Assembly (NCBI RefSeq): GCF_022878925.1
Contig: NZ_CP084629.1
Coordinates: forward strand, 682,001 to 746,000
Origin: Caballeronia sp. TF1N1
GTDB taxonomy: Bacteria > Pseudomonadota > Gammaproteobacteria > Burkholderiales > Burkholderiaceae
Reading direction: 5' to 3'
DNA length: 64,000 nucleotides
Shown here piece by piece: positions 8,967-54,419 of the stretch; within the stretch, counting starts at the first letter, position 1; each line of letters opens with the position of its first letter. The notes beneath the pieces were generated by a model. The model was given only the letters and a program-made list of their open reading frames with translations, made no database searches and was not told the DNA's origin. Position numbers and translations under genes: made by a program.

Positions 8967-10444
8967 ACACGCGCCGCCTGTCGTGGGTCTTGTCGTCGAG
9001 CGGCTGCGCGCTGCTTCTTTCCGCCTGCATCACGAGCGGCGGCATCCACCCACACGAGTCGATGATCGACCCCGCCACGCTCGACGCCGGTGCCGCTCTG
9101 CGCGCGACCCAAGCCGATGCGAAATGGCCCGCCGACGCCTGGTGGCGTCAATGGAACGACCCGCAGCTGGATACGCTGGTGCAGGACGCGACAGCAGGCA
9201 ATCCCGGGCTGCGCGCGGTGGCGGAGCGGATCGACGCGGCGCGTTTTCAGGCGCAGATCGCAGGCGCGGCCGAGTTGCCGCAAGTCAGCGCGAACGGCAG
9301 CTTCGAGCGCAGACGTTATGCCCGCTACACCACGCCCGCGCCGCCCGGCGGCACGACCGTGTGGAGCAACAATGTCGAGGCTGACCTTTCATACGATCTC
9401 GATCTGTGGGGCAAGAATCGCGCGATCCGCGAAGCCGCGCTCGACAACGTGCAAGCGGTGGCGGCCGACGCGCGCTTCGCCGAAGTCGAACTGCAGACGG
9501 CCGTGGTGCGCAGCTATGTGCAGTTGTCGCTGCAATACGCATTGCTCGATGTCTATCGCGACGTGCAGAACGAACAGCAGCGCACGCTCGATATCGCCAC
9601 GCGCCGCTGGCATGCGGGCGTCGGCAGCGGTCTCGAAGTCAGTCAGGCGCAGACGCAACTTGCCATGAGCACGACACGCGTGCAGGAAGCGCAGCAACAA
9701 CTCGCGCTTTCGCGCATCGGCATTGCGGGGCTGGCGGGCAAGGGGCCGGGTTATGCCGATGCCTTGCGCCGTCCCGGCCTCGCGCTGAGCGTGCCGGTCG
9801 ATTTGCCGGCGACGCTGCCGGCCGAGCTCGTCGGGCATCGCGCGGACGTGGTGGCCGGGCGCTGGCGCGTGTTGCAAGCGGACAAGGGCATCGACGCGGC
9901 GCATGCGGATTTCTATCCGGACATCAACTTGCTGGCGACGGCATCGCTGGGATCGGCGGCGACTTTCGGCGGCTTCTTCAACTTCGTCGATAGCAACGGC
10001 ATGGGCCACGGCGTGGGCGCGGCGATCTCGCTGCCGATCTTCGACGGCGGACGGCGGCGCGGCAACTACGGCGTCGCGGTGTCGTCGCGCGATGCCGCCG
10101 TCGACGCCTACAACCAGAGCGTGATCGGCGCAATGCAGCGCGTTGCCACGCAAGTCGTAACCTTGCGTTCGCTCGGCGAGCAGCAGGCGTCGATCGAGGA
10201 CACGCTCGATTCGGCGCGCAAGTCGTTTCAGCTTGCCGACACGGGGTATCGCAGCGGCATCACCGAGTTTTTGAACGTGCTGGCCGCGCAGAATGCGCAG
10301 TTGCAGCAGGAACAAAGCCTCGCGACGATTCGGGCGAAACGTCTCGATGCCTGGGCGTTATTGATGAAGGAACTGGGCGGCGGCTTTGCATCGTCCATGC
10401 CGCGGGAAGCAACCCAAGGAGTCGCCGATGCCACGCGAGATTGA
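8963..10444 (+). CDS. RND/MFS-type outer-membrane efflux lipoprotein, NodT family
   Basis: 493 aa. The N-terminus MNTRRLSWVL ... LLLSAC is a lipoprotein signal with the lipobox Cys at about residue 23. The body contains two repeats of the TolC-like outer-membrane-factor fold: WWRQWNDPQLDTLVQDA, then DLSYDLDLWGKNRA, and later ISLPIFDGGRRRGNY. These are hallmark NodT segments. The ATG overlaps the FUSC stop and its own end overlaps the DUF1656 gene by 17 bp, so the four genes are tightly coupled. Confidence 0.9.
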   Translation: MNTRRLSWVLSSSGCALLLSACITSGGIHPHESMIDPATLDAGAALRATQADAKWPADAWWRQWNDPQLDTLVQDATAGNPGLRAVAERIDAARFQAQIAGAAELPQVSANGSFERRRYARYTTPAPPGGTTVWSNNVEADLSYDLDLWGKNRAIREAALDNVQAVAADARFAEVELQTAVVRSYVQLSLQYALLDVYRDVQNEQQRTLDIATRRWHAGVGSGLEVSQAQTQLAMSTTRVQEAQQQLALSRIGIAGLAGKGPGYADALRRPGLALSVPVDLPATLPAELVGHRADVVAGRWRVLQADKGIDAAHADFYPDINLLATASLGSAATFGGFFNFVDSNGMGHGVGAAISLPIFDGGRRRGNYGVAVSSRDAAVDAYNQSVIGAMQRVATQVVTLRSLGEQQASIEDTLDSARKSFQLADTGYRSGITEFLNVLAAQNAQLQQEQSLATIRAKRLDAWALLMKELGGGFASSMPREATQGVADATRD

Positions 10445-10628
10445 CGTCTTCTCGCTTCTCATGCCCGGCTTGCTGCCGATACTTGCTGGCTGCGTGCTGC
10501 TGTTCGTCGTTCTCGATCTCGTGCTGGCGCGGCTCGGGTTTTATCGCTTTACGTGGCACGCGAGCCTCTTTCGCGTCGCGCTCTTCGCTGCGATGTTCAG
10601 CGGCGCTTCGCTGCTCTCATGGCGATGA
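10428..10628 (+). CDS. DUF1656 small membrane protein (AaeX-like)
   Basis: 66 aa from the ATG at 10428 with AAGGAG upstream. It begins MPREIDVFSLLMPGLLP and has two hydrophobic helices, the standard form of the DUF1656/AaeX peptide found between FUSC exporters and their HlyD adaptors. It overlaps the NodT gene by 17 bp and the adaptor gene by 4 bp. It is probably an accessory inner-membrane subunit; exact function is not known. Confidence 0.85.
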   Translation: MPREIDVFSLLMPGLLPILAGCVLLFVVLDLVLARLGFYRFTWHASLFRVALFAAMFSGASLLSWR

Positions 10629-42877: not shown

Positions 42878-44086
42878 TTGGCCGAACACGATTTAGACAA
42901 ACTCAAGATCGACCGCAGTCCCGCTGCCGTCGTCCCGCGACGCAGGCGTCCGTGGCTTCGCCATGTGCTCGTCGCTGCGATCATTCTCGTACTCGTGGGC
43001 CTCGGCTTGCGCTTTGCCGGGCTGCAAACGGTGGAGACCGCTACGGTCACGTCGGTTTATCCATCGCAAAGCTATACGCTTCTCAACGCGACCGGCTACG
43101 TCGTGCCGCAACGCAAGGCGGCGGTCGCATCGAAGGGACAGGGCCGCGTGGAATGGCTTGGTGTACTCGAGGGTACGCCTGTAAAGGAAGGCCAGGTGAT
43201 TGCGCGGCTCGAACGCGATGATGTGTCCGCTTCGCTTGCACAAGCCGAGGCGCAAGTTAAAGTCGCTCAAGCCAACCTCGAGTTGCAACGCGCCGAGTTG
43301 AGGGACGCAGAGATCAGTCTCAAGCGCTCCGATATCCTCGCTCCCCAAGGCGCGATTCCCGCGTCTCAGCACGACAGCGACCGCGCCCGCTTCGACAAGG
43401 CCAAGGCAGCCGTGAATAGCGACGCAGCCACGATCGTGTCGGCGCAAGCCAATGCGCTCGCGGCGCGCGTAGCCGTCGACCAGACCATCATTCGTGCGCC
43501 TTTCGATGGCGTCGTGCTCGAAAAGCATGCGAACGTGGGCGATAACATCACGCCGTTCTCGTCGGCATCGGACAGCAAGGGTGCGGTCGTGACGATTGCG
43601 GACATGAAGACGCTCGAAGTCGAGGCGGATGTCGCGGAGTCGAACATCGGCAAGATCATGGTCGATCAACCATGCGAAATGCAGCTCGACGCGCTGCCCG
43701 ATGTTCGCTTCTCGGGACGTGTATCGCGCATCGTGCCAACGGTCGACCGTTCGAAGGCCACGGTCCTCGTGAAAGTGCGCTTCGTCGAACACGATCCACG
43801 CGTGCTGCCCGACATGAGCGCGAAGGTCGCGTTCCTTTCGAAGCCCGTACCGCCTGAACAGAAGAAGGCGCTGGTGGCCGTTCAGCCCGCAGCAGTGGTC
43901 ACGCGCGATGGCAAGCAGGTCGTGTTCATCGTCGAGAACGACAAGGCGCTTCAGAGGCCCGTGACAACGGGTGAACATATCGGCGACCTGCTCGCGGTGC
44001 AAGGCGTCAAGCCAGGCGATACGCTGGTACTCGCGCCAAACGACAAGATCAAAGACGGCACCAGCGTTACGCTGGCGAAGAAGTAA
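42878..44086 (+). CDS. HlyD/MacA-type periplasmic adaptor of an ABC exporter
   Basis: 402 aa if begun at TTG 42878; the frame is open back to a stop at 42827 with no ATG or GTG, and no clear ribosome site precedes the TTG, so the start is uncertain. A transmembrane helix (HVLVAAIILVLVGLGLRFAG) is followed by lipoyl halves (VASKGQGRVEWLGVLEGTPV; IIRAPFDGVVLEKHANVGDN), a Gln/Ala-rich helical hairpin and a beta-barrel domain. It links the ABC exporter to an outer-membrane factor; no such factor is in this operon. One base separates its stop from the ATPase GTG. Confidence 0.83.
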   Translation: MAEHDLDKLKIDRSPAAVVPRRRRPWLRHVLVAAIILVLVGLGLRFAGLQTVETATVTSVYPSQSYTLLNATGYVVPQRKAAVASKGQGRVEWLGVLEGTPVKEGQVIARLERDDVSASLAQAEAQVKVAQANLELQRAELRDAEISLKRSDILAPQGAIPASQHDSDRARFDKAKAAVNSDAATIVSAQANALAARVAVDQTIIRAPFDGVVLEKHANVGDNITPFSSASDSKGAVVTIADMKTLEVEADVAESNIGKIMVDQPCEMQLDALPDVRFSGRVSRIVPTVDRSKATVLVKVRFVEHDPRVLPDMSAKVAFLSKPVPPEQKKALVAVQPAAVVTRDGKQVVFIVENDKALQRPVTTGEHIGDLLAVQGVKPGDTLVLAPNDKIKDGTSVTLAKK

Positions 44087-44087
44087 C

Positions 44088-44780
44088 GTGAGCACCGCAC
44101 CTCTGGTCCAGATCAGTCACGTCGTAAAGTCATACCGGCGCGGCGTGCAGACGGTGCCCGTGCTGACCGACATCTCGTTGTCCATCGCCGAAGGGGACTT
44201 CGTCGCGTTGATGGGACCGTCCGGCTCGGGCAAGAGCACGTTGCTCAATCTGATCGCGGGCATCGACCGGCCGGACAGCGGCGAGCTTCTTGTCGGCGGG
44301 CTCGATATCACGCGTTTGCCGGAGTCCGCGCTTGCCGACTGGCGCGCGGCTCATGTCGGCTTCATCTTCCAGTTCTATAACCTGATGCCGGTGCTCACCG
44401 CATTCGAGAACGTCGAATTGCCGTTGATGCTCACGCGCCTATCGCGCGCCGAACGGCGTGAACGTGTCGCGATGGTGCTGGACATGGTCAACATGAGCGA
44501 GCGCACGACTCACTATCCGTCGGAGCTATCCGGCGGCCAGCAGCAGCGCGTGGCGATTGCACGCGCCTTGATTACCGACCCGAAGCTGATCGTCGCCGAT
44601 GAACCCACGGGCGATCTCGACCGCACTTCTGCGGCCGAAGTCCTAACGATGCTGCAACGCCTGAATGAACGCGTTGGCAAGACCATCATCATGGTCACGC
44701 ACGACGCGCATGCCGCCAATGCCGCGAAGGCGCTGGTGCATCTTGAGAAGGGCGAGTTGATCGACGGCGCGGTGCGCTGA
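44088..44780 (+). CDS. ABC exporter ATPase, MacB/LolD type
   Basis: 230 aa from the GTG at 44088 (VSTAPLVQISHVVKSYRRG). Walker A GPSGSGKST, FIFQFYNLMPVLTAFENVEL typical of the MacB/LolD/FtsE group, signature LSGGQQQRVAIARAL, Walker B LIVADEPTGDLD and switch His in MVTHD. It energises the two FtsX-type permeases that follow. An ATG-started longer frame lies inside the adaptor gene and is rejected. Confidence 0.9.
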   Translation: MSTAPLVQISHVVKSYRRGVQTVPVLTDISLSIAEGDFVALMGPSGSGKSTLLNLIAGIDRPDSGELLVGGLDITRLPESALADWRAAHVGFIFQFYNLMPVLTAFENVELPLMLTRLSRAERRERVAMVLDMVNMSERTTHYPSELSGGQQQRVAIARALITDPKLIVADEPTGDLDRTSAAEVLTMLQRLNERVGKTIIMVTHDAHAANAAKALVHLEKGELIDGAVR

Positions 44781-44783
44781 ATC

Positions 44784-45938
44784 ATGTTCGTCTTTAAGCT
44801 CATTCTGCGCAATGCCACGCGTCACAAGCTCCGCACGGCGCTGACCGTGCTGGGCCTCACGATTGCGGTGCTTGCATACGGCCTGCTGCATACGGTCGTG
44901 GATGCGTGGTACGCGGGCGCGGCTGCGGCATCCAACGCGCGCCTGGTCACTCGCAATGCCATCTCGTTGGTGTTTCCTCTGCCTCTTGCATACGAGAATC
45001 GCATTCGCGGCGTGGATGGCGTGACGCTGGTTGCACGCTCGAACTGGTTCGGCGGCATCTATCGCGACCCCAAGAATTTTTTCGCGCAATTCGCGGTATC
45101 GGACAACTATCTGGATCTCTATCCCGAGTACATCGTCACGCCGCAAGCGCGCTCCGATTACCAGCGCGATCGCAAGGGCGTGCTCATCGGGCGACAGCTT
45201 GCGACGCAATACGGCTTCAAAGTGGGCGACGTCATTCCTCTCAAGGGGACGATCTATCCAGGAACGTGGGACTTCGTGGTGCGCGGCATCATGGAAGGGC
45301 GCGACGAATCGACCATCACGCGGCAACTCATCTTTCACTGGGAATATCTCAACGAGACGATTCGCAAGACCACCAAGCGTCAAGTGGATCAGGTCGGCGT
45401 GTATGTCGTGGGCATCGGAAATCCGGATCAGGCGGCCACCGTATCGCGCAATGTCGACAACGTCTTCAAGAACTCGCTTGCGGAGACGCTTACCGAAACC
45501 GAGCAAGCGTTTCAGCTGGGCTTCGTCGCGATGTCTAATCAGATCATTGCGGCCATACGTGTCGTCTCTTACGTGGTGATTCTCATCATCATGGCCGTGA
45601 TGGCCAATGCAATGGCCATGAGCGCACGCGAACGCACCGTCGAATACGCCACGCTCAAGGCGCTTGGATTCGGACCCACGTTTCTTAGCGTGCTCGTCTT
45701 CGGCGAGTCGCTGGCGATTTGCACGATGGGCGGTGCAATCGGCATACTCGCGACACCGCCGGTCGCCGATTTCTTCAAGAATGCGACAGGCGGCGTGTTT
45801 CCGGTCTTTCGCGTCTCGCACGAAACGATGATGCTGCAAGCTGCCTGCGCGTTCGTCATCGCGCTGGCGGCGGCGATCGTACCGGCGGTGCAGGCGAGCC
45901 GCGTGCGGATCGTCGAAGGCTTGCGAGCGATCGGATAA
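44784..45938 (+). CDS. ABC exporter permease 1, FtsX/MacB type
   Basis: 384 aa. One N-terminal transmembrane helix (ALTVLGLTIAVLAYGLL), a ~230-residue periplasmic MacB-like domain and three C-terminal helices (VVSYVVILIIMAVMANAMAM; ALKALGFGPTFLSVLVFGE; MMLQAACAFVIALAAAIVPA), the standard FtsX layout. 3 bp follow the ATPase. Two different permeases probably form a heterodimer. Confidence 0.88.
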   Translation: MFVFKLILRNATRHKLRTALTVLGLTIAVLAYGLLHTVVDAWYAGAAAASNARLVTRNAISLVFPLPLAYENRIRGVDGVTLVARSNWFGGIYRDPKNFFAQFAVSDNYLDLYPEYIVTPQARSDYQRDRKGVLIGRQLATQYGFKVGDVIPLKGTIYPGTWDFVVRGIMEGRDESTITRQLIFHWEYLNETIRKTTKRQVDQVGVYVVGIGNPDQAATVSRNVDNVFKNSLAETLTETEQAFQLGFVAMSNQIIAAIRVVSYVVILIIMAVMANAMAMSARERTVEYATLKALGFGPTFLSVLVFGESLAICTMGGAIGILATPPVADFFKNATGGVFPVFRVSHETMMLQAACAFVIALAAAIVPAVQASRVRIVEGLRAIG

Positions 45939-45947
45939 GGCGAGCAT

Positions 45948-47114
45948 ATGGCCATTCCCGTTTCATACATCGCGCGCAATCTATGGGCTCGCCGTCTCAC
46001 GACGATGTTGACCGCAGGCGGTCTCGCGCTCGTCGTCTTCGTGTTCTCGACCGTGCTCATGCTCGATGCGGGACTCAAGAAAACGCTCGTGTCCACGGGC
46101 GAACGCGATAACGTCGTGGTCATTCGCAAAGGCGCGGAAACGGAGATTCAAAGCTCGATCGACCGCAGTCAGGCGAACGTGATGGAGATGCATCCGTCTG
46201 TCGCGATGAATGGCGAGGGTGAGCCCTTCGCATCCAAAGAGACCGTGGTGCTCATCTCGCTCTATAAGCTCGGTTCGAATACGCCAGCGAATGTCGTGAT
46301 ACGCGGCGTATCGCCGACTGGCGTCGAACTGCGGCCGCAAGTGAGGCTTACGGCGGGGCGCATGTTCAGTCACGGGTCTTCGGAGATCATCGTCGGCAGC
46401 AGTATCGCCAAGGGCTTTGCGGGCACGCGCATTGGCGATCATTTGCGCTTCGCTCAGCGCGACTGGACCGTGGTGGGCCACTTCGATGCAGGCGGCAGCG
46501 GCTTCGATTCGGAGATATGGGGCGATGTCGATCAACTCATGCAGTCGTTTCGCCGCACGAGTTATTCGTCGATGGTCGTGAGGCTTGCCCGCAGCGATGC
46601 CTTCGACCGCTTTCGCGCGGATATCGACGTCGATCCTCGTCTTGCCGATGAAGCCAAGCGCGAGCAAGTGTTCTACGGCGATCAGTCGAAGGCGCTATCC
46701 ACGTTCATCAATATTCTCGGCATCACGCTTTCGATAATCTTTTCGATAGCAGCGATGATCGGCGCGATGATCACCATGTATGCCTCGGTCGCGAACCGGG
46801 TCGCGGAGATTGGAACGCTTCGCGCGTTAGGTTTCAAGCGCTTCGATGTGTTGATTGCGTTTCTGCTCGAAGCGCTGCTTTTGGGACTCGCCGGTGGACT
46901 CGTCGGCCTCGGCTGCGCGGCACTCATGCAGTTCGCTTCGTTTTCGACGACCAATTTTCAGACGTTCGCGGACCTGTCGTTCCGATTCGTGCTCACGCCA
47001 TCGGTCGTTATTCAAACGGTTTTATTCTCGATGATCATGGGGTTCGTCGGTGGCTTTCTGCCTGCCGTACGTGCTGCGAGGCTGAGCATCGTAGATGCGT
47101 TGCGAGCCCGATAA
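45948..47114 (+). CDS. ABC exporter permease 2, FtsX/MacB type
   Basis: 388 aa with the same topology as the preceding permease: one helix near residue 25 (LALVVFVFSTVLML), a periplasmic domain and three C-terminal helices (FINILGITLSIIFSIAAMIG; TLRALGFKRFDVLIAFLLEA; SVVIQTVLFSMIMGFVGGFL). Nine bp after permease 1. This adaptor-ATPase-two-permease set resembles DevBCA-like or lipid-related exporters. Cargo is unknown. Confidence 0.88.
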   Translation: MAIPVSYIARNLWARRLTTMLTAGGLALVVFVFSTVLMLDAGLKKTLVSTGERDNVVVIRKGAETEIQSSIDRSQANVMEMHPSVAMNGEGEPFASKETVVLISLYKLGSNTPANVVIRGVSPTGVELRPQVRLTAGRMFSHGSSEIIVGSSIAKGFAGTRIGDHLRFAQRDWTVVGHFDAGGSGFDSEIWGDVDQLMQSFRRTSYSSMVVRLARSDAFDRFRADIDVDPRLADEAKREQVFYGDQSKALSTFINILGITLSIIFSIAAMIGAMITMYASVANRVAEIGTLRALGFKRFDVLIAFLLEALLLGLAGGLVGLGCAALMQFASFSTTNFQTFADLSFRFVLTPSVVIQTVLFSMIMGFVGGFLPAVRAARLSIVDALRAR

Positions 47115-47126
47115 TCGCGAGACTGC

Positions 47127-49625
47127 TCAACCGCGATACACCGCACCTTTCGATCCATTGACCGCGAACACATCGCCTTCGGGCGCCGCGCGAACTTGTG
47201 CGCTTCGCGCGACGAGCGGCACGCGACGCGGCACGCCGGGCGCAAGATGGAACCAGTCGATGCTCGCGTAATAGTCCGGATCGACCACGTGCACCCATCG
47301 TGCAAGCTGTGTCGTTGCAATGTCGAGGAACCAGCCTTTGTCATCCTGACCGATGGTCGCGTTCAATCCGACATCACGTCGCTCGCCAATGGAAGGATCG
47401 GGAAAATGGAAAGCTTCTGACAATACCGCGCCGGTATCCTGATCGCGCAGAAGCACATGCGTGACATCGTGCGCGCGAGGACCGAAGCGATATGCATAGG
47501 CGATGTCGAAGAACGCGCCCAGCAGCGAAGCCGATTTGATACGCTGCACGCTGCGCGGAGATAGCACGACATTGCTCGCACCGCCTGCGACCTTCACCGC
47601 GCCATCGCGCAAGCACGACAGTTCGACGCGTGCGCGTATCTTGCGAGCCGTCTCGTTGACGAGATGCACATCGAGGCCGTCGAGGCCTTCATCGGTAATC
47701 AGCGCCTGAATAGGCTGAAGCACGCGCGCAAGCCCATGCAGCGCGCTTTTGGGCTTGTGACGCGCATCGATCACACCCCAGCCCGCGCCCGGACGCAGAT
47801 CCAGCAGATTCCATACGATGCCGCCCGCGCAGGTCGAACCTTCGCGACGCCATTCGGAAAACACAGCGCCGATCACATCGGCGACGACGGCGCGAGACAG
47901 TTCGAGATAGCGCTCGGGGTCTTCATAACGCAGACGCGCCACGTCGACGCGATACAGTTCGCGCAGATAGTGCTCGCGCACATCGTCGAAGTCCCATGCG
48001 GAACCGGGATCGCGCGGCACGCTTGTCTTCCAGCGTGGCTCATGCGCGCGCGCCGCATTCGGTACAGAGCGCAGCGTGACATCGTCGGGGACATTCGCGA
48101 ACGCAAGGCATTCGGAAGCGAAACGTACTTGCGCACGACGCGCGTCGTCGAACGGGCGCTGATATGCGCCGACGCCGTAGTAATGCGTGATGCCGCCGCG
48201 CGTGCCGAAGGGCATCGAGACGCTGTCGCCGGGCGCGGCGCTCGGTGAGTTCACGACATACGCCACATCGGCGCGATGCTTGGCGATGACTTCCGGAAGC
48301 AGTTGCGTGAAAAGGCCTTGTTGATAGGCATCGAATGGCAGACCCAGCATGGCCGCTTGCTGATGCACTTCGCTGCCGCCGCATAGCACTGCAAGCGATG
48401 CAAAACGCCGCGTGCGCGCAAGAAACTGTTCTGCTTCGAGTTGCACGCTCCGGTTGAATGCCTCGTCCGAGGGATAGTCGAAGTTGGCAAACGCAAAGTC
48501 TTGCCAGATCAGAATGCCGAATTCGTCCGCGAGTTCGTAAAAGGTATCGGATTCATAAAGCGTGATGCCGCTCACGCGAATGATGTTGAGCCCCGCATCG
48601 CGGCACAGGGTGAAGATGGCCGCGAGCTTGTCGCGCGATGCGTCGAGCGCGACGATATCGGCGGAAGTCCAGCATGCGCCGCGCGCGAACACCGGCACGC
48701 CGTTGACGATGATCTGAAAGCCCGTCTTGTCCGCACCGCGATCCACTTCGATATTTCGAAAACCAATCTGACCAAGCGCGATACGACCAAGCGTTTCGCT
48801 CGTCAAGGTCACGGCATAGAGCGATGGCGCGCCATGCGTATGCGGCCACCAGAGCCGCGCTTGCGGCACGCGCACTTGTCCCGTGAGCGTATGCGCGTCA
48901 CGCCATTGCAGCGGCGCCGTGGCCTCGCCATCGCCACATTCGACATGCATTTCCTCCGGCTCTTGCGGATGATAGAAATGTACAGTGACGTCGAGCAGAC
49001 CATCGGCACGATCGATTGAAGGCGCAAGCTCGATACGCTCGATGCCATTGCGCGCTTCGCCGATCAGTTCCACTGCGCGCCACGGACCCACTGGCTGAAT
49101 CGGCGGGCACCATCCGGGCATGTGTCCAAGCAAGGTCGTGCGTACGTTGCGCAGCGTCGCTGGCTGCGCGAGCTTCGGACGCCAGCGCGCACGGCCGCGT
49201 TTTGCGGCAAGTGCAGGCTGAATGGAACGAAAGCACAGATAAAGCGTCGCGTCGCCTTGCAGATTCAGATCGACATCGTGCGCGACGAACATAGAATCGG
49301 AGTCGAGCAGCTTGTCGTTATCGAGCCACACTTCGGCAATCGTCGCGAGGCCATTGAAGCGCACGCGCCGCTTGCCTTCACCCTGCAAGCGCACGCGATA
49401 CCAGTGATCCGACATCGCATAGGGCTGCGCGAGCGCATCTTCACCAACGCCGTTTGCACGGTGCGCCGATGCAATCGTGCCGGGCACGGGCGCATCGATC
49501 CAATGCGCGCTTTCATCGAGCGATGCAGGCGTCGCACAAGCGCCCGCAGCCGTGCTCGTGCACGTCCACCCTTCGGAGAGGCGTTGCGGCAGGCAAGCGT
49601 TGGACATATCGGACATGGAATGCAT
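47127..49625 (-). CDS. Glycoside hydrolase family 2 protein (beta-mannosidase-like)
   Basis: 832 aa from the ATG at 49625, with GAAGGAAGGA just upstream. No signal peptide is seen, so it is probably cytoplasmic. Residues ~20-180 are the GH2 sugar-binding domain, ~190-290 the immunoglobulin-like domain (ending WWPHTHGAPSLYAVTL), and ~300-640 the barrel (FQIIVNGVPVFARGACWTSA; LIWQDFAFANFDYP). The acid/base Glu is kept in an altered setting (LCGGSEVHQ where beta-mannosidases have GNNE), and the nucleophile-type Glu is in RFASECLAF. It is the last gene of the amino acid:carrier protein operon, 75 bp after DUF1839, behind a strong stem-loop. A transglycosylating or glycoside-cleaving role on the pathway product is conceivable. 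Confidence 0.83.
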   Translation of the reverse strand: MHSMSDMSNACLPQRLSEGWTCTSTAAGACATPASLDESAHWIDAPVPGTIASAHRANGVGEDALAQPYAMSDHWYRVRLQGEGKRRVRFNGLATIAEVWLDNDKLLDSDSMFVAHDVDLNLQGDATLYLCFRSIQPALAAKRGRARWRPKLAQPATLRNVRTTLLGHMPGWCPPIQPVGPWRAVELIGEARNGIERIELAPSIDRADGLLDVTVHFYHPQEPEEMHVECGDGEATAPLQWRDAHTLTGQVRVPQARLWWPHTHGAPSLYAVTLTSETLGRIALGQIGFRNIEVDRGADKTGFQIIVNGVPVFARGACWTSADIVALDASRDKLAAIFTLCRDAGLNIIRVSGITLYESDTFYELADEFGILIWQDFAFANFDYPSDEAFNRSVQLEAEQFLARTRRFASLAVLCGGSEVHQQAAMLGLPFDAYQQGLFTQLLPEVIAKHRADVAYVVNSPSAAPGDSVSMPFGTRGGITHYYGVGAYQRPFDDARRAQVRFASECLAFANVPDDVTLRSVPNAARAHEPRWKTSVPRDPGSAWDFDDVREHYLRELYRVDVARLRYEDPERYLELSRAVVADVIGAVFSEWRREGSTCAGGIVWNLLDLRPGAGWGVIDARHKPKSALHGLARVLQPIQALITDEGLDGLDVHLVNETARKIRARVELSCLRDGAVKVAGGASNVVLSPRSVQRIKSASLLGAFFDIAYAYRFGPRAHDVTHVLLRDQDTGAVLSEAFHFPDPSIGERRDVGLNATIGQDDKGWFLDIATTQLARWVHVVDPDYYASIDWFHLAPGVPRRVPLVARSAQVRAAPEGDVFAVNGSKGAVYRG

Positions 49626-49665
49626 GTTCCTTCCTTCTATGGGCGAAGATGAACATGATGAACGA

Positions 49666-49700
49666 AGCACGGGCCACGCGAGCAGCGTGGCCCCGGTGCT
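49666..49700 (-). other. Strong stem-loop between DUF1839 and GH2 genes
   Basis: AGCAC-GGGCCACGC, a 5-base loop (GAGCA), then GCGTGGCCC-CG-GTGCT: a 14-bp stem with a 2-base bulge. It begins right after the DUF1839 stop. No T-run follows on the minus strand. It could lower GH2 expression by partial termination, or protect the upstream mRNA end. Confidence 0.65.
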
Positions 49701-50714
49701 TCAAAGAAAACGCGCGGCGAGCGGTTCGATGACCTTCTCGTAAGATGCTTCGAGCGAATCGAGGCAGTCGGTACACGGGTCGAGCCGTGAACGCATGCGC
49801 GCCCGCGCAAGGCGGAACTGCATGACCATCGCTTCGTTCGCCATGGATTGCGCGCTCGTCTGGATTGCCTCAGGCACTTCGACGCCGTGCGCATTGAGCC
49901 ACACCAGATACTTCGACAGCAACTCGAAGTTCGAACCGAGCTGGCGCATCACGTTGAACGTGTAGAGATGGTAGTAAGACACATCCCGTTCGAGCAATGC
50001 ACGTAGATGCTCGGGAAACTCCGCGCGCCACTGCGAGACGGGGTTCGATGTCGGACGATCGAGCAAGCGCAGCTTGAGCAGATCGACCGAACGTTGCACC
50101 AGCGCCTGACCTTCGAGCGGCGCACGCGCGCGCTTGACGAACTCCACGTACGGAAAGAGCGCATGCACGTCGCTTGCAAGGTCTGGCATCAGGCGAAACA
50201 CGCCGTCATAGTCCTCGCCTGATAACGCGAAATAGCCCGCGTTATGGAAGTACGTGATGCGCTTTGCCGCTGCATCGATGGAGTCGACTGCAATGGTCGT
50301 CTTCGAATGCGACTGCTTGTACGCGGTTGCACGCGTGTCGGGCAGATAGAACGCATCCACTTCGGCGACCACTACGTGTCCGCGTTTGGTCTGCTCGCGC
50401 ACGTGAGCTTCGAGCGTGTCGAAAATCGCGAGCTCCTGGGCCTGCAGGCCGTAGAGCCGCGAGATGTCGTCGAGCGAGAACTTGGGGAACGTGAACTGAT
50501 CGCCTTCGAACGCCTGCGTCACGGTGAAGCTCAATGCGGCGTGCGGATCGCAGCCGTAGTGGTGCAAGAGCTCGATCCACAGATCGACGTAACAGTTGGT
50601 CTCCAGCCAGACGCGCTCGCCGCGATGCAACGCATGGCGGCTCGCTTCGTCTTGAGCGGCAGACTGTTCGTTGGACGCGCCAGTCACGGCGTGCTCGGGC
50701 GAGCGTGCGTTCAT
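49701..50714 (-). CDS. DUF1839 protein, candidate transferase of the carrier-protein pathway
   Basis: 337 aa; the ATG at 50714 overlaps the ligase stop (ATGA). An early segment ETNCYVDLWIELLHHYG and a later VAEVDAFYLPDTRATAYKQS followed by SHSKTTIAVD give a conserved-looking Cys, Asp and His. The layout reminds me of BtrH-like acyltransferases, papain-fold enzymes that move an acyl group from a carrier protein to an amine; this is a memory-based structural guess. DUF1839 genes commonly accompany amino acid:[carrier protein] ligases in proteobacteria. The C-terminal half is helical. Function is unproven; it is the best candidate for the step that offloads the aminoacyl group. Confidence 0.8.
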   Translation of the reverse strand: MNARSPEHAVTGASNEQSAAQDEASRHALHRGERVWLETNCYVDLWIELLHHYGCDPHAALSFTVTQAFEGDQFTFPKFSLDDISRLYGLQAQELAIFDTLEAHVREQTKRGHVVVAEVDAFYLPDTRATAYKQSHSKTTIAVDSIDAAAKRITYFHNAGYFALSGEDYDGVFRLMPDLASDVHALFPYVEFVKRARAPLEGQALVQRSVDLLKLRLLDRPTSNPVSQWRAEFPEHLRALLERDVSYYHLYTFNVMRQLGSNFELLSKYLVWLNAHGVEVPEAIQTSAQSMANEAMVMQFRLARARMRSRLDPCTDCLDSLEASYEKVIEPLAARFL

Positions 50715-51778
50715 GCGTCTTTGCCCAGTGTGCCGAGGCCATCGGCGACGAGCGGCGCCGCATTGCCCCACAGCAGTTCACGCACTGCGGCGGGCCACGC
50801 GTTCACATCGAGACCGTGATGACGGAAGAGCGCAAGCGTCGTACGTTCCATGCCGAAGCCCACGCATGCGGTATGCGCCACTTCGCCATTGCCCTGACGG
50901 ATGTTCCACAACTCGCCGAAGTGGTCCATGTGATAGTTGAACGACAAACATGCGGTCGGACGATCGGGCGTTGCAACCGGCACGAGCAGTTCGAATTTGA
51001 GTTCTTGCGCACGCTGGCTGTCGGCCACGATCTTGCCGCCGCGTCCGAAGAACGGGTCGTTAGCCAGATCGATTTCGAACGGCAGTTGCAGCAGATTCAC
51101 GAGCAGCGAGCCACGCTCGATCCACTTCTGACGGAACGCCATTACTTGCTCGGGGCTGCCCACGCGAATGTACTCGCGCATGCGGAACATCTGCATGCGG
51201 CCCGGATCGATGGACGGTTCGTGACGGAAGCAATACGAGAACGCATCGAAGATCGCGCCGTCTTCGGCGAGGTTGCCGCGCTTGGCAACGAGCGGATAGA
51301 TCGGATAACAGGCCGCGGGCGTGAGCACGAGACGCGTCGGCTTTTGCTGATCCATCCAGTCATCGGAACGCTCTTCTTCTTCGCCGATATGCACGATCTT
51401 GTCGAGCGCTTCGAGCAGACGATGATGTCCGCGATCATTGCCCTGGAACGAGTGAATCGTGCCGGCAAGGTTCGGGAAGCTCTTCAGGTACTCACTGTCT
51501 TCGAAGTCGCGGCGGCGCATGGCCGGCGGAAAGCGCAACGATTCCGCGTGCTGGTCGGCGCCGAGCAACGTGATCGCGTTGTTGAGACGGTCCACCACAT
51601 CCTCGAACACCGCGCTGCGGCCATAGAGGCCGTCTTCGCCCGTATCGATGAGAATGCCGGCGGCCATCAGCCGGTCGCGCAAGGTCAAATCCGATTTATC
51701 GTAGGGCACTTGACTGGTCTCGTTATGTGCTTGTTCTTCGGCCTGCATGAGCGCGGCCTGTTCGTTCGGCATGTTCAT
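50711..51778 (-). CDS. Amino acid:[carrier protein] ligase (truncated class II seryl-tRNA-synthetase homologue)
   Basis: 355 aa, only the catalytic core of an atypical SerRS with no tRNA-binding arm. Class II motif 2 is FRHEPSIDPGRMQMFRMRE (~184-202) and motif 3 GFGMERTTLALFRH (~307-320). Cys157, Glu202 and Cys305 match the zinc-ligand set of archaeal-type SerRS and of the Bradyrhizobium homologues shown (Mocibob and colleagues) to activate glycine or alanine and load it onto a dedicated carrier protein. The carrier protein gene lies two genes upstream. The specificity (Gly, Ala or other) cannot be read with confidence. Its ATG is 5 bp from the flavoprotein stop. Confidence 0.9.
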   Translation of the reverse strand: MNMPNEQAALMQAEEQAHNETSQVPYDKSDLTLRDRLMAAGILIDTGEDGLYGRSAVFEDVVDRLNNAITLLGADQHAESLRFPPAMRRRDFEDSEYLKSFPNLAGTIHSFQGNDRGHHRLLEALDKIVHIGEEEERSDDWMDQQKPTRLVLTPAACYPIYPLVAKRGNLAEDGAIFDAFSYCFRHEPSIDPGRMQMFRMREYIRVGSPEQVMAFRQKWIERGSLLVNLLQLPFEIDLANDPFFGRGGKIVADSQRAQELKFELLVPVATPDRPTACLSFNYHMDHFGELWNIRQGNGEVAHTACVGFGMERTTLALFRHHGLDVNAWPAAVRELLWGNAAPLVADGLGTLGKDA

Positions 51779-51783
51779 AATCG

Positions 51784-53049
51784 TTATAGGGTCCCGGTTG
51801 CGGAACGCTGCGCGAGCAGCAGATTCGCGGTGTTCAGTTCGATGCGGTCATTGCTGATCATGAGCGGCGCCGAGTGCAGATCGCGCAAGTGCCGCCCCAC
51901 GCTGAAGGGCGTATCGTTCTTGTAACCCGCCATGCCGCAGATCATCAGCGTCTCTTGCACGACGTGCACGGCCGATTGCGAAATGGCGAGCTTCAGCATG
52001 TTCAGATCGGAGGCAATGCCGATGGACGCGGTCAACGGTGCGTCGCTGTCGTCGGTCTGCAATGCCTGCCTTGCGAGCCGTTCCGCTTGCGCAGCCTCGA
52101 CCGAGGCGAGCGATTCGCGCAGACGCGCCTGCATCATGCGCACGAGCGTGACGGCTTGCGAAAGACGCGCGGCCGAAGGCGGCAATGCGCCCGGCTTGCC
52201 ACGCGCCTGATTACGGAAGAACTGATGCGCGCGATTCACGGCATCCGACGCAATACCGATCCACACCGCGGACCACAAGGTATGCGAAACCGGCAGCATG
52301 CTTTCATCGGCGATCTTCGAGAAAGGCGAGGGCAGAATCTGTTCGGCCTTGCCGCTTGCAGTGAGACGATGCCCCTGACTGCACGTGCCGCGCATGCCGA
52401 GCGTGTCCCACGTACCGCGCGATTCGAGCGTGCACGTCGAACGAGGCGCGACGATCAGCACCTGATCGGACGGCGGCGCGTCGGGATGACGGCGTGCGGT
52501 TACGAGAATGCAATCGGCATACGTGCCATACGAAATCGTCGGCGCGAGCTTTTCGATGTTGAAGGCGTCATCGGCAAGATCGACCGCACATGCGCTCGTG
52601 CGCATGTTGCCGCCGATATTTTCTTCCGATGTCGCCGATGCCAACAGCAGTTGCTCGTTCACCATGCGCGTGAGAAACGCGCGCTGCCAGGGCACATTCG
52701 CGCCGTGATCGACGATGCAGACGACCTGGCTCTGATGCATGGCGTAGATCATCGCGGCAGATGCGCAGCCTTGCGCGAGCGTTTCGCACAAGCGGGCCAC
52801 GCCCGTGAGCGAGAGCCCGTCGCCGCCGAAGCTTGCCGGCACCATTGCGGAGAAGAGACGCTCGGTACGCATTGCGGCCACGGCTTCAGCGGGGAAGCGT
52901 GCATCCTTGTCGACCGCTGCCGCATGCTTGCCGGCGATGGCCGAGACGCGACGCGCGGCTTCGAGCAACTCGCCTTCGCTGCGCGGCGCGATCACGCCGT
53001 CGCCTTTAACGTGTCCTGCTGCTTCGAGTTCTTGCGTGGCGGCGTTCAT
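51784..53049 (-). CDS. Acyl-CoA-dehydrogenase-like flavoprotein of the carrier-protein operon
   Basis: 421 aa, acyl-CoA dehydrogenase fold: N-terminal helical domain (FPAEAVAAMRTERLFSAMVP; FGGDGLSLTGVARLCETLAQ), middle beta domain (TISYGTYADCILVTARR; RGTWDTLGMRGTCSQGHRL) and C-terminal helical domain (RLSQAVTLVRMMQARLRES; ICGMAGYKNDTPFSVGRHLR). The ending resembles the DszC/hydroxylase-like branch as much as true fatty-acid dehydrogenases. No CoA-ligase or beta-oxidation gene is nearby. In operons with a carrier protein and aminoacyl ligase it most likely oxidises or hydroxylates the carrier-bound amino acid. Its ATG overlaps the carrier protein stop. Confidence 0.83.
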   Translation of the reverse strand: MNAATQELEAAGHVKGDGVIAPRSEGELLEAARRVSAIAGKHAAAVDKDARFPAEAVAAMRTERLFSAMVPASFGGDGLSLTGVARLCETLAQGCASAAMIYAMHQSQVVCIVDHGANVPWQRAFLTRMVNEQLLLASATSEENIGGNMRTSACAVDLADDAFNIEKLAPTISYGTYADCILVTARRHPDAPPSDQVLIVAPRSTCTLESRGTWDTLGMRGTCSQGHRLTASGKAEQILPSPFSKIADESMLPVSHTLWSAVWIGIASDAVNRAHQFFRNQARGKPGALPPSAARLSQAVTLVRMMQARLRESLASVEAAQAERLARQALQTDDSDAPLTASIGIASDLNMLKLAISQSAVHVVQETLMICGMAGYKNDTPFSVGRHLRDLHSAPLMISNDRIELNTANLLLAQRSATGTL

Positions 53050-53297
53050 GCGTCCGCCTGCGAACCTTGCAGCTCCTTGACGGCGGCCGCGAGCGAATCG
53101 ACGCTCGAGAACAGACGTCGCGTAAGCATTTGATCCGGAATTTCGATGCCGAACTCGTCTTCGATCGCGAGCATGACGTGCACGGTTGCAAGCGAGGAGA
53201 GGCCGGCTGCGTACAGGTCGTCGCTGTCGGAGAGAGTGTCGATCGACACGTCGAGGCGTGCGGACTCGGCAAGGATGCGGCGCAATTCAGTTTTCAT
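53046..53297 (-). CDS. Acyl/aminoacyl carrier protein
   Basis: 83 aa from the ATG at 53297 (MKTELRRILAES); a longer in-frame reading from 53414 runs through the promoter. The four-helix carrier pattern is clear: DDLYAAGLSSLATVHVMLAI then EDEFGIEIPDQ. The phosphopantetheine Ser should be Ser35 in GLSSL. The residue before it is Ser rather than the Asp of ordinary GxDSL carrier proteins, which may keep it from being used by fatty-acid enzymes. First gene of the operon with the flavoprotein, ligase and DUF1839. Confidence 0.88.
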   Translation of the reverse strand: MKTELRRILAESARLDVSIDTLSDSDDLYAAGLSSLATVHVMLAIEDEFGIEIPDQMLTRRLFSSVDSLAAAVKELQGSQADA

Positions 53298-53702
53298 TTT
53301 CTCTGGTTTCCCTTGAACCATGGCCAACGGTGCAAACGGACTGAAGCGGGTATCAAACGAATATTCGATTTTTTGGACCGTGCTCAGTCCCGTTGCTAAC
53401 GGGCGGTGGTGCACTCGGTGAATCGCTGGTCAAACGACTCAAGAGCACTCGCAACACCGTCGAATCTTGTTTGATCGTATTTAACGAATTACGGGGGGTG
53501 ATCGTCCGTGCGATGGCGCACGGTGAGGCCCGGAAGACAACGCGTCGCGTGTGCGATATCGACCACGCTTGATGTCACGCAAATCGTTCAGACTGATACT
53601 TGTCGCGGCGTTACGACGGTATTCCTACTGCATAACCTCGCCTTGCAAGTTTCATGCGCGTGATGCAAGGTATTTGAAACCTTAAAACGACGGGAAACGT
53701 AA
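53298..53702. other. 405-bp divergent promoter region
   Basis: No gene. On the carrier-protein side lie the 10-bp palindrome CGAATATTCG (53358-53367) and the hairpin CCCGTT-GCT-AACGGG (53389-53403), both possible control sites. On the YdcF side are interleaved inverted repeats CTTGCA/TGCAAG (53642-53669) and GTTTCA/TGAAAC (53649-53680). No strong sigma-70 pair is obvious on either strand. Confidence 0.5.
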
Positions 53703-54419
53703 TTGGATCTACTCTGCCTGCTGCTTGTCTTCGTCGCCTTGTTCATCGTGTGGCGCAAACGCCGCCTCGTGATCTTCCTCGTGGCCGGAACCGTGTTCTG
53801 GCTCTTCGGTAGCTGGCTTGCAGGGCCGATGATAAGCCTCGCGCAGATCGGCTATGGGTCGAAGCAGGCGCCCCGGCTCGCGGACCGTACGGCGATCATC
53901 GTGCTGGGCGGTGGGACCGAATACGATCGCAACAAACATCTCGTTCCACTGGCCGATTCCATCTATCGCGTCGACCTTGCTGCCGCCCTGTACAAAACCT
54001 GTGTCGAAACGGACAAGCAGTGTCAGGTCATCATGAGCGGCGGAAATCCGCAGCATCACGAACAAACCGAAGCGCAACTATACGGCGGTCTGCTCGTGGA
54101 TCGTGGCGTGAAGCCTGCGGATCTCATCCTCGAAGATCAGAGTCTCGACACTTACGAGAACGCGCGCAATACGTACAAAATCCTACGCTCGCGTCAATAC
54201 GACACGACCATCCTCATCACGTCCTCACTGCATATGCGTCGCGCGTTGCTCGCATTCGATGCTTTCGACCTACACCCGCAGCCTGCGGTTGCATTCGTGC
54301 GCAATCCGAAGTCATGGCTCGTGCCGCATCCGGAAGGATGGATCGATTCCGACAGCGGATTGCACGAGATGCTCGGCACGTTGAAGTTTCACGTGTGGCG
54401 CTGGCTAGGCTTGTATTGA
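53703..54419 (+). CDS. YdcF-like DUF218 membrane protein
   Basis: 238 aa from a TTG start (ACGGGA upstream). Two N-terminal hydrophobic helices (LLCLLLVFVALFIVW; LVIFLVAGTVFWLFG) precede a DUF218 domain with AIIVLGGGTEYDR, VIMSGG, EDQSLDTYENARNT and ILITSSLHMRRAL. The family includes SanA/ElyC-type proteins linked to the cell envelope. It is divergent from the carrier-protein operon and convergent with the UvrA gene, 4 bp between stops. Confidence 0.85.
   Translation: MDLLCLLLVFVALFIVWRKRRLVIFLVAGTVFWLFGSWLAGPMISLAQIGYGSKQAPRLADRTAIIVLGGGTEYDRNKHLVPLADSIYRVDLAAALYKTCVETDKQCQVIMSGGNPQHHEQTEAQLYGGLLVDRGVKPADLILEDQSLDTYENARNTYKILRSRQYDTTILITSSLHMRRALLAFDAFDLHPQPAVAFVRNPKSWLVPHPEGWIDSDSGLHEMLGTLKFHVWRWLGLY

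Follow-up and report, generated by a model that had tools for sequence, protein, structure and literature searches.

A five-gene operon in a 64,000-nucleotide stretch of DNA from Caballeronia sp. TF1N1 (G000:C4:682001-746000, in a genome of 7.07 Mb; the whole stretch is called the window here) is best read as a cytosolic aminoacyl-transfer cassette serving the synthesis of surface polysaccharide or exopolysaccharide (EPS), in which it would attach an aminoacyl group, possibly oxidised, to an EPS precursor. The probability of this reading is put at roughly 0.6. Since EPS clusters surround the cassette in related bacteria, the decoration of a sugar polymer is more likely than the making of a free small molecule. 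The five genes all lie on the minus strand, as one leftward operon:

53046..53297, minus strand: carrier protein (CP), 83 aa, with a probable phosphopantetheine serine, Ser35, in a GLSSL motif (PF00550, NF005480)
51784..53049, minus strand: flavoprotein of the acyl-CoA dehydrogenase (ACAD) fold, 421 aa, with Ile398 and Ser255 instead of Glu (PF02771/PF00441)
50711..51778, minus strand: SerRS-core amino acid:[carrier protein] ligase, 355 aa, of the type A branch (NF005479, PDB 4h2w/3mey, tree)
49701..50714, minus strand: DUF1839 protein, papain-like putative aminoacyl transferase, 337 aa, with Cys41, Thr139/140 and His157 (PF08893, 421 bits)
49664..49702, minus strand: strong RNA hairpin between the stop of DUF1839 and the start of GH2, without a U-run (by minimum free energy, MFE)
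47127..49625, minus strand: GH2 beta-mannosidase-like protein, 832 aa, with Glu419 and Glu505 (PF22666, PDB beta-mannosidases)

In the proposed mechanism, the ligase would adenylate a small amino acid and load it onto CP as a thioester; amino acid:[carrier protein] ligase activity has been shown by others for relatives. The flavoprotein would then oxidise the CP-bound residue, the likelier route being flavin oxygenation or some other chemistry that does without the ACAD Glu base, and DUF1839, papain-like with a Cys-Thr-His site, would transfer the acyl group from CP to an acceptor. That acceptor would most likely be a sugar belonging to an EPS precursor at the cytoplasmic face, joined to the group through an ester or an amide bond. 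GH2, a cytosolic enzyme of the beta-mannosidase type, and a double alpha/beta hydrolase encoded elsewhere in the genome might presumably trim or edit the glycan or the acyl intermediate.

The first-pass annotation had described the CP, flavoprotein, ligase and DUF1839 genes as one leftward operon joined by ATGA overlaps or a 5-nt gap, and the coordinates confirm this: CP/flavoprotein and ligase/DUF1839 are ATGA overlaps, while flavoprotein and ligase are 5 nt apart. The ligase/DUF1839 overlap places the DUF1839 start at 50714 (337 aa), and Cys41, Thr139/140 and His157 correspond to Cys37, Thr135/136 and His153 in the 333-aa numbering used below. A longer CP with a GTG start at 53414 is possible. 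GH2 starts 75 nt downstream of DUF1839, with a strong GC hairpin between them (79-nt interval, MFE -36.6 kcal/mol, z -4.35, no U-run). All five genes look to be under purifying selection, as suggested by dN/dS values of 0.07-0.36 against L031, L040, L052 and L059. By hydropathy, none of the five proteins has a long hydrophobic segment, and GH2 has no visible hydrophobic leader. Condensation or adenylation modules of nonribosomal peptide synthetases (NRPS) were found neither among the operon genes nor among the flanking genes tested (42878-47114, 53703-54419).

The cassette is widely conserved. Among the best 80 of 235 DUF1839 loci in a species-level genome set, with partner genes scored by tblastn (E 1e-5), the ligase was found in 79, the flavoprotein in 78, CP in 75 and GH2 in 74; contig ends cut some loci, genes came from a home-made caller and many neighbour labels were assigned by eye. 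The complete five-gene set is present in 71/80, and the order and strand of the genes found are identical in 80/80. These loci are spread over Beta-, Alpha- and Gammaproteobacteria, with one from a metagenome-assembled genome of Gemmatimonadetes; 29 of the 80 are Caballeronia or close kin. The pairing of ligase and CP with a redox enzyme beside them is supported, and the notion that homologues rarely keep the flavoprotein and DUF1839 beside them fails. GH2 had been taken to follow the operon; it is indeed adjacent, but its presence in 74 loci makes it a member of the cassette and not a mere follower. The sixth frequent partner is the double alpha/beta hydrolase (44/80 loci, and 40 of the 51 outside the Caballeronia set), which in the window genome is located away from the operon. 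Beyond the six named clusters, none recurs in more than 12 of those 51 loci. An apparent ligase-DUF1839 fusion (L070, one 630-aa frame) was rejected, as its ligase half is out of frame before DUF1839 starts.

In at least 53 of 63 genomes from other genera of the family, the EPS-initiating sugar transferase Bac_transf (PF02397) is encoded no more than 15 kb from the ligase, where about 0.75 would be expected by chance; the 63 are the 65 genomes with a ligase match minus G036 and G112, whose matches are weak or broken, and they count genomes, not lineages. Pfam matches in relatives' loci comprise ManC, glycosyltransferases, Acyl_transf_3, Crp and a VpsR-domain sigma54 activator, with more EPS genes recognised by eye, and the operon stands within an EPS cluster in relatives such as L112-L114 and L208-L210. 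Ten regions of the own genus were picked from 38 genomes with a match, nine because their DUF1839 is of a diverged type and the tenth (G598) because its copy lacks the Cys; Pfam labels are given for L208 and L210. In seven of them the whole operon adjoins GNAT and Crp genes, and GT4, Wzy or Wza genes lie farther away where the region extends that far. Of the other three, two are decayed and the third carries a Cys-less DUF1839 alone. Rhizobium-type loci contain GT4 and a flippase-hydrolase fusion, and outside the family at least five of 11 type A loci (L148, L150, L151, L152, L154) are near glycosyltransferase, flippase or Wzz genes, the context of L151 being assigned by its likeness to L108. 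At the corresponding EPS place of the window genome (L143), only a Cys-less DUF1839 is left, with GNAT-like genes on one side and Crp-like/sugar-transferase genes on the other, so that the operon has apparently left the EPS locus in this strain; in the ligase tree, the window copy is close to L208, an EPS-locus copy.

The first-pass annotation favoured a small-molecule product made without an NRPS, in which case the linkage to EPS genes would be mere co-regulation under c-di-GMP control. This seems unlikely. The operon does stand apart from EPS genes in the window genome and in the nearest Caballeronia loci, type B operons (described below) occur in varied contexts, and in genome G489 (L177:7215-8186 and 9588-10523) a distant partial SerRS-like ligase match (32%) and a BtrH_N protein are separated by about 1.4 kb, within what by eye looks like a ketosynthase/condensation-type cluster. 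Set against this are the EPS transferase near the ligase in the family, the lack of any further cluster recurring in more than 12 of the 51 loci, and the recurrence of GH2 with its Glu pair intact. The context in relatives, own-genus loci included, is EPS synthesis, and the small-molecule claim is therefore not upheld. Control of the window copy by c-di-GMP is not claimed here, as the BerB-like regulators of the genome lie where no EPS polymerisation genes were recognised by eye; an Acyl_transf_3-like gene, also assigned by eye, lies beside one of them.

The ligase matches NF005479, 'amino acid--[acyl-carrier-protein] ligase', with 515 bits (cut-off 357) and PDB 4h2w with 308 bits, and its residues 42-345 of 355 align with 4h2w/3mey, that is, with the SerRS-like catalytic core without the tRNA-binding arm. 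Cys157, Glu187 and Cys305, which we take to be the zinc ligands, are present in 75/75 sequences. The carrier beside the ligase appears dedicated to it, with Ser35 conserved in 61/61 aligned sequences; the motif alignment behind the CP, GH2 and hydrolase counts dropped sequences outside 0.8-1.25 of the median length, and some rows of alignment A5 are trimmed matches.

A ligase match occurs in 44 of 398 genomes of the phylum, 39 of them outside the own family. There, all 11 ligases of 55-64% identity have DUF1839 directly adjacent, against none of the remaining 28 genomes (12 with ligases of 45-49% identity and 16 with more distant ones). The rule that DUF1839 accompanies a ligase if and only if the latter is at least 55% identical holds outside the family in this sample and fails inside it (G015, G052, G048, G072). 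A tree of 36 ligases separates the DUF1839 type (A) from the Bll0957-like type (B), each being one side of a branch, with support of 92/91 and 83/90. The window ligase, with DUF1839 adjacent, belongs to type A and not to the Bll0957 subfamily; the earlier term 'Bradyrhizobium-type' is thus not supported for it. Bradyrhizobium Bll0957 (PDB 3mey, 4h2w), reportedly characterised as an amino acid:[carrier protein] ligase by Mocibob in 2010/2013 (work cited in PMC9437257), has the same enzyme core. Unlike the window operon, Bll0957-like loci (L156-L161, of the 45-49% class) lack DUF1839 and GH2, while the flavoprotein is found in six of six and the carrier in five. Since flavoprotein and carrier thus also accompany type B ligases, a core module to load and oxidise would be common to both branches, with DUF1839-GH2 apparently serving one of them as its means of offloading. 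A 291-aa protein beside two Bradyrhizobium-type ligases (L156:9021-9896, L157:10540-11415), without a Pfam match for the L156 copy tested, is a candidate alternative offloading enzyme. In L116-L119, type A ligases adjoin glycosyltransferases and the double alpha/beta hydrolase, and carrier, flavoprotein and DUF1839 were not recognised next to them.

The nearest solved structures to the flavoprotein are short-chain/butyryl ACADs and the nitrososynthase DnmZ. In an alignment to solved ACADs, Ile398 occupies the position of the catalytic Glu of the YEGT motif, and this residue is Ile or Val in 75/75 sequences. Position 255, presumably the alternative catalytic Glu site of other ACADs, is Ser, Thr or Ala in 75/75 (Ser255 in the window) and never Glu. 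The absence of the ACAD Glu speaks against a classical dehydrogenase and fits an oxygenation, guessed for this neighbourhood in 2010 (see below). The earlier claim that the flavoprotein oxidises the bound amino acid therefore stands as a plausible redox step, but without the usual ACAD catalytic residue. Were it a true dehydrogenase after all, the imino- or dehydro-aminoacyl product would hydrolyse and the group delivered would be an oxo-acyl one, e.g. glyoxylyl or pyruvyl; its nearest solved profiles include short-chain ACADs no less than oxygenases, but with residues 398 and 255 as they are in all sequences, we consider this rather doubtful.

DUF1839 has been placed in the papain-like fold with a C(T/S)H site in a 2023 paper (PMC10318531). 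Across 80 sequences, Cys37 is conserved in 78, Thr/Ser135 in 80 and His153 in 79, and the two loci without the Cys (L058, L049) have no intact operon. The DUF1839 profile found no convincing match among solved structures (best E 1.8). A functional parallel is BtrH, a papain-like ACP:aminoglycoside acyltransferase, which collects its acyl group from a carrier and delivers it to a sugar (PMC10318531), and to which DUF1839 has a weak profile match. The two differ in that the aligned BtrH_N proteins have a conserved C-H-D and DUF1839 a C-T-H, and no other Btr genes were seen. The papain-like assignment and the weak BtrH_N matches support the earlier proposal that DUF1839 is a plausible offloading enzyme.

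A different division of labour would make DUF1839 an editing thioesterase or de-aminoacylase and leave the true transfer to the double alpha/beta hydrolase or to a membrane acyltransferase. Loci with CP, flavoprotein, ligase and hydrolase that lack DUF1839 do exist (L125, L126), Acyl_transf_3 genes lie nearby, and the hydrolase, which resembles the EPS-linked TIGR03100 below its cut-off, keeps the Cys of a GxCxG elbow in its C-domain in 42/42 sequences. However, DUF1839 is the tightest-linked partner outside the family (11/11), and the hydrolase is missing from 36 of the 80 loci as fetched and lies elsewhere in the window genome, which makes this division quite improbable.

The history of DUF1839 copies bears on its Cys37. 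In Caballeronia, the Cys is absent in 25/25 inspected orthologues of the paralogue L143 and kept in 5/5 inspected single-copy genomes; three of the 25 (G179, G167, G598) are from genomes without a second full DUF1839 match, of which G179 and G167 have no ligase. In genera g3/g24, 9/9 inspected operon copies lack the Cys and the KTT motif (seven operon copies are uninspected), 17/17 second copies keep the Cys, 16 of them together with KTT and one (L220) with KTS, and Cys and KTT are both retained in the two single-copy genomes. From the sequences, the Cys appears to track function, being lost in extra or orphan copies and kept where one copy remains. The Cys-less copies, mostly full-length, are found in many Caballeronia (L143:6122-7162, i.e., G000:C1:1688122-1689162, and L178-L202), and both contexts read (L143, L216; 2 of 25) lie within the EPS locus. 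A pseudoenzyme or a regulator is possible.

The best PDB matches of GH2 are beta-mannosidases, 5n6u (150 bits) and 2vjx, and Glu419 and Glu505, which align with the 2vjx Glu pair (acid/base and nucleophile), are both present in 70/70 sequences; GH2 is thus predicted to be a beta-mannosidase-type enzyme. A PADLOC match (CARF/beta-galactosidase) was set aside as a glycosidase match. The double alpha/beta hydrolase is a fusion resembling the exosortase-A-associated hydrolases 2 and 1 (TIGR03100/03101), with all scores below the curated cut-offs; its motif counts come from a 42-sequence alignment, and alignment A2, with its out-of-frame row L062, was not used. In Rhizobium-type loci (L108:14814-18143, L150, L151), a polysaccharide flippase is fused to the double alpha/beta hydrolase.

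The EPS loci of relatives can be tied to biofilm clusters that have been studied genetically. In L112 the order is beta-helix, ManC, GNAT, sigma54 activator, GH2, DUF1839, ligase, flavoprotein, CP, Crp, Crp, sugar transferase (beta-helix and GNAT labelled by eye), which matches the published Bcam1339-1342 (beta-helix, ManC, a COG2153 protein and berB) and Bcam1349 (berA, Crp) (PMC3584217, PMC9684580, PMC5507470). Overall the order follows BCAM1339-1350; orthologues of the operon should thus lie between the biofilm regulators berB and berA, and from gene order alone BCAM1343-1347 would be GH2, DUF1839, ligase, flavoprotein and CP. The Bep (B. cenocepacia) and Bec EPS clusters (PMC3584217, PMC5552954, PMC9684580, PMC5507470) share with our loci the gene order around the operon orthologues and the Crp and sigma54 regulators, and Bep has a TIGR03100 hydrolase, Bcam1334, akin to the sixth gene. 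They differ in that the available text names no ligase, carrier or DUF1839, and the window operon lies outside such a cluster. In the homologous bec cluster, 15 of 18 bec genes were found in the primary biofilm screen, and an insertion in becG ('acyl-CoA dehydrogenase domain'), taken here as the flavoprotein gene of that cluster, gave a biofilm OD600 of 0.84 +/- 0.08 against 1.25 +/- 0.03 and smooth colonies (PMC5507470). It is conceivable, and offered tentatively, that Bep/Bec-type EPS bears an oxidised aminoacyl group as an alkali-labile ester, made by the ligase, CP, the Glu-less flavoprotein and the C-T-H transferase. Such an ester would have been overlooked because the Bep structure was measured in NaOD, which would strip esters (PMC7084887).

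The first-pass annotation had regarded the system as the best candidate in the window for an undescribed one, which is not supported. A note added in proof in 2010 (PMC2922099) reported the same neighbourhood, of the Agrobacterium Atu2573/Atu2574 type, with a SerRS-like ligase, an ACP, a redox enzyme, a conserved uncharacterised protein, a glycosidase and saccharide genes, as here; it proposed aminoacylation of a cell-surface sugar and guessed at oxygenation. Atu2574, named in that note, is taken as DUF1839 by position only. The note is a prediction of an amide to an amino sugar, and that section draws no link to bep or bec. As the Bep repeat has no amino sugar, an amide of this kind is disfavoured as a main substituent, while an ester would be lost in NaOD. 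The open-access literature searched holds no paper linking these ligases with EPS beyond the 2010 note, and as far as the searches go, no publication brings together the link to EPS clusters, the two ligase branches, the pattern of Cys loss and retention, and the lack of the Glu.

Several observations weigh against the proposed EPS aminoacylation. No EPS gene flanks the operon in the window, the three Bac_transf genes of the genome being on other contigs, and around the Azospirillum loci no EPS genes are evident when neighbours are viewed by cluster only. The four family genomes that break the identity rule have a type A ligase without DUF1839, and in G123 neither DUF1839 copy adjoins the ligase, the extra copy keeping its Cys and having lost KTT. 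The likeness to BtrH is slight: 10 of 27 DUF1839 members match BtrH_N weakly (best E 0.0067) and the window protein does not, and in the profile alignment (hhalign) Cys37 falls on the BtrH_N Cys with P 0.0057 at a probability of only 6.5%. Many of the genomes counted are close kin, some being the same strains as named loci, and the counts are thus not independent. In the biofilm data (PMC5507470), the becG insertion has the weakest effect among the seven bec mutants of Table 1, with a biofilm one third under wild type (the other six at 0.43-0.66), though the figure legend gives a reduction of at least 40% for all; polar effects of the insertion are possible, and becF, the carrier by order, was in the library and was not identified in the screen. 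The Bep repeat consists of four neutral sugars, all of them Gal, Glc or Man, and the available text mentions no aminoacyl group (PMC7084887).

If true, EPS aminoacylation would be the missing function of the tRNA-synthetase-derived amino acid:[carrier protein] ligases, whose role has, as far as we know, lacked an explanation since 2010. DUF1839 would gain a function as well, and a published biofilm mutant, so far labelled just as an acyl-CoA dehydrogenase, would be accounted for. Moreover, since the DUF1839 branch is tied to c-di-GMP-controlled biofilm clusters with known mutants, the question can be put directly: does the matrix carry aminoacyl groups, and from which amino acid?

Genes for a MacB/HlyD-type ABC exporter (42878-47114) are convergent with the operon in the window and also lie near it in some Caballeronia loci, e.g. 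L031. On the other side, a DUF218 gene (53703-54419) is divergent from the CP gene, and a similar gene lies upstream in 20 of the 80 loci, all in the Caballeronia set.

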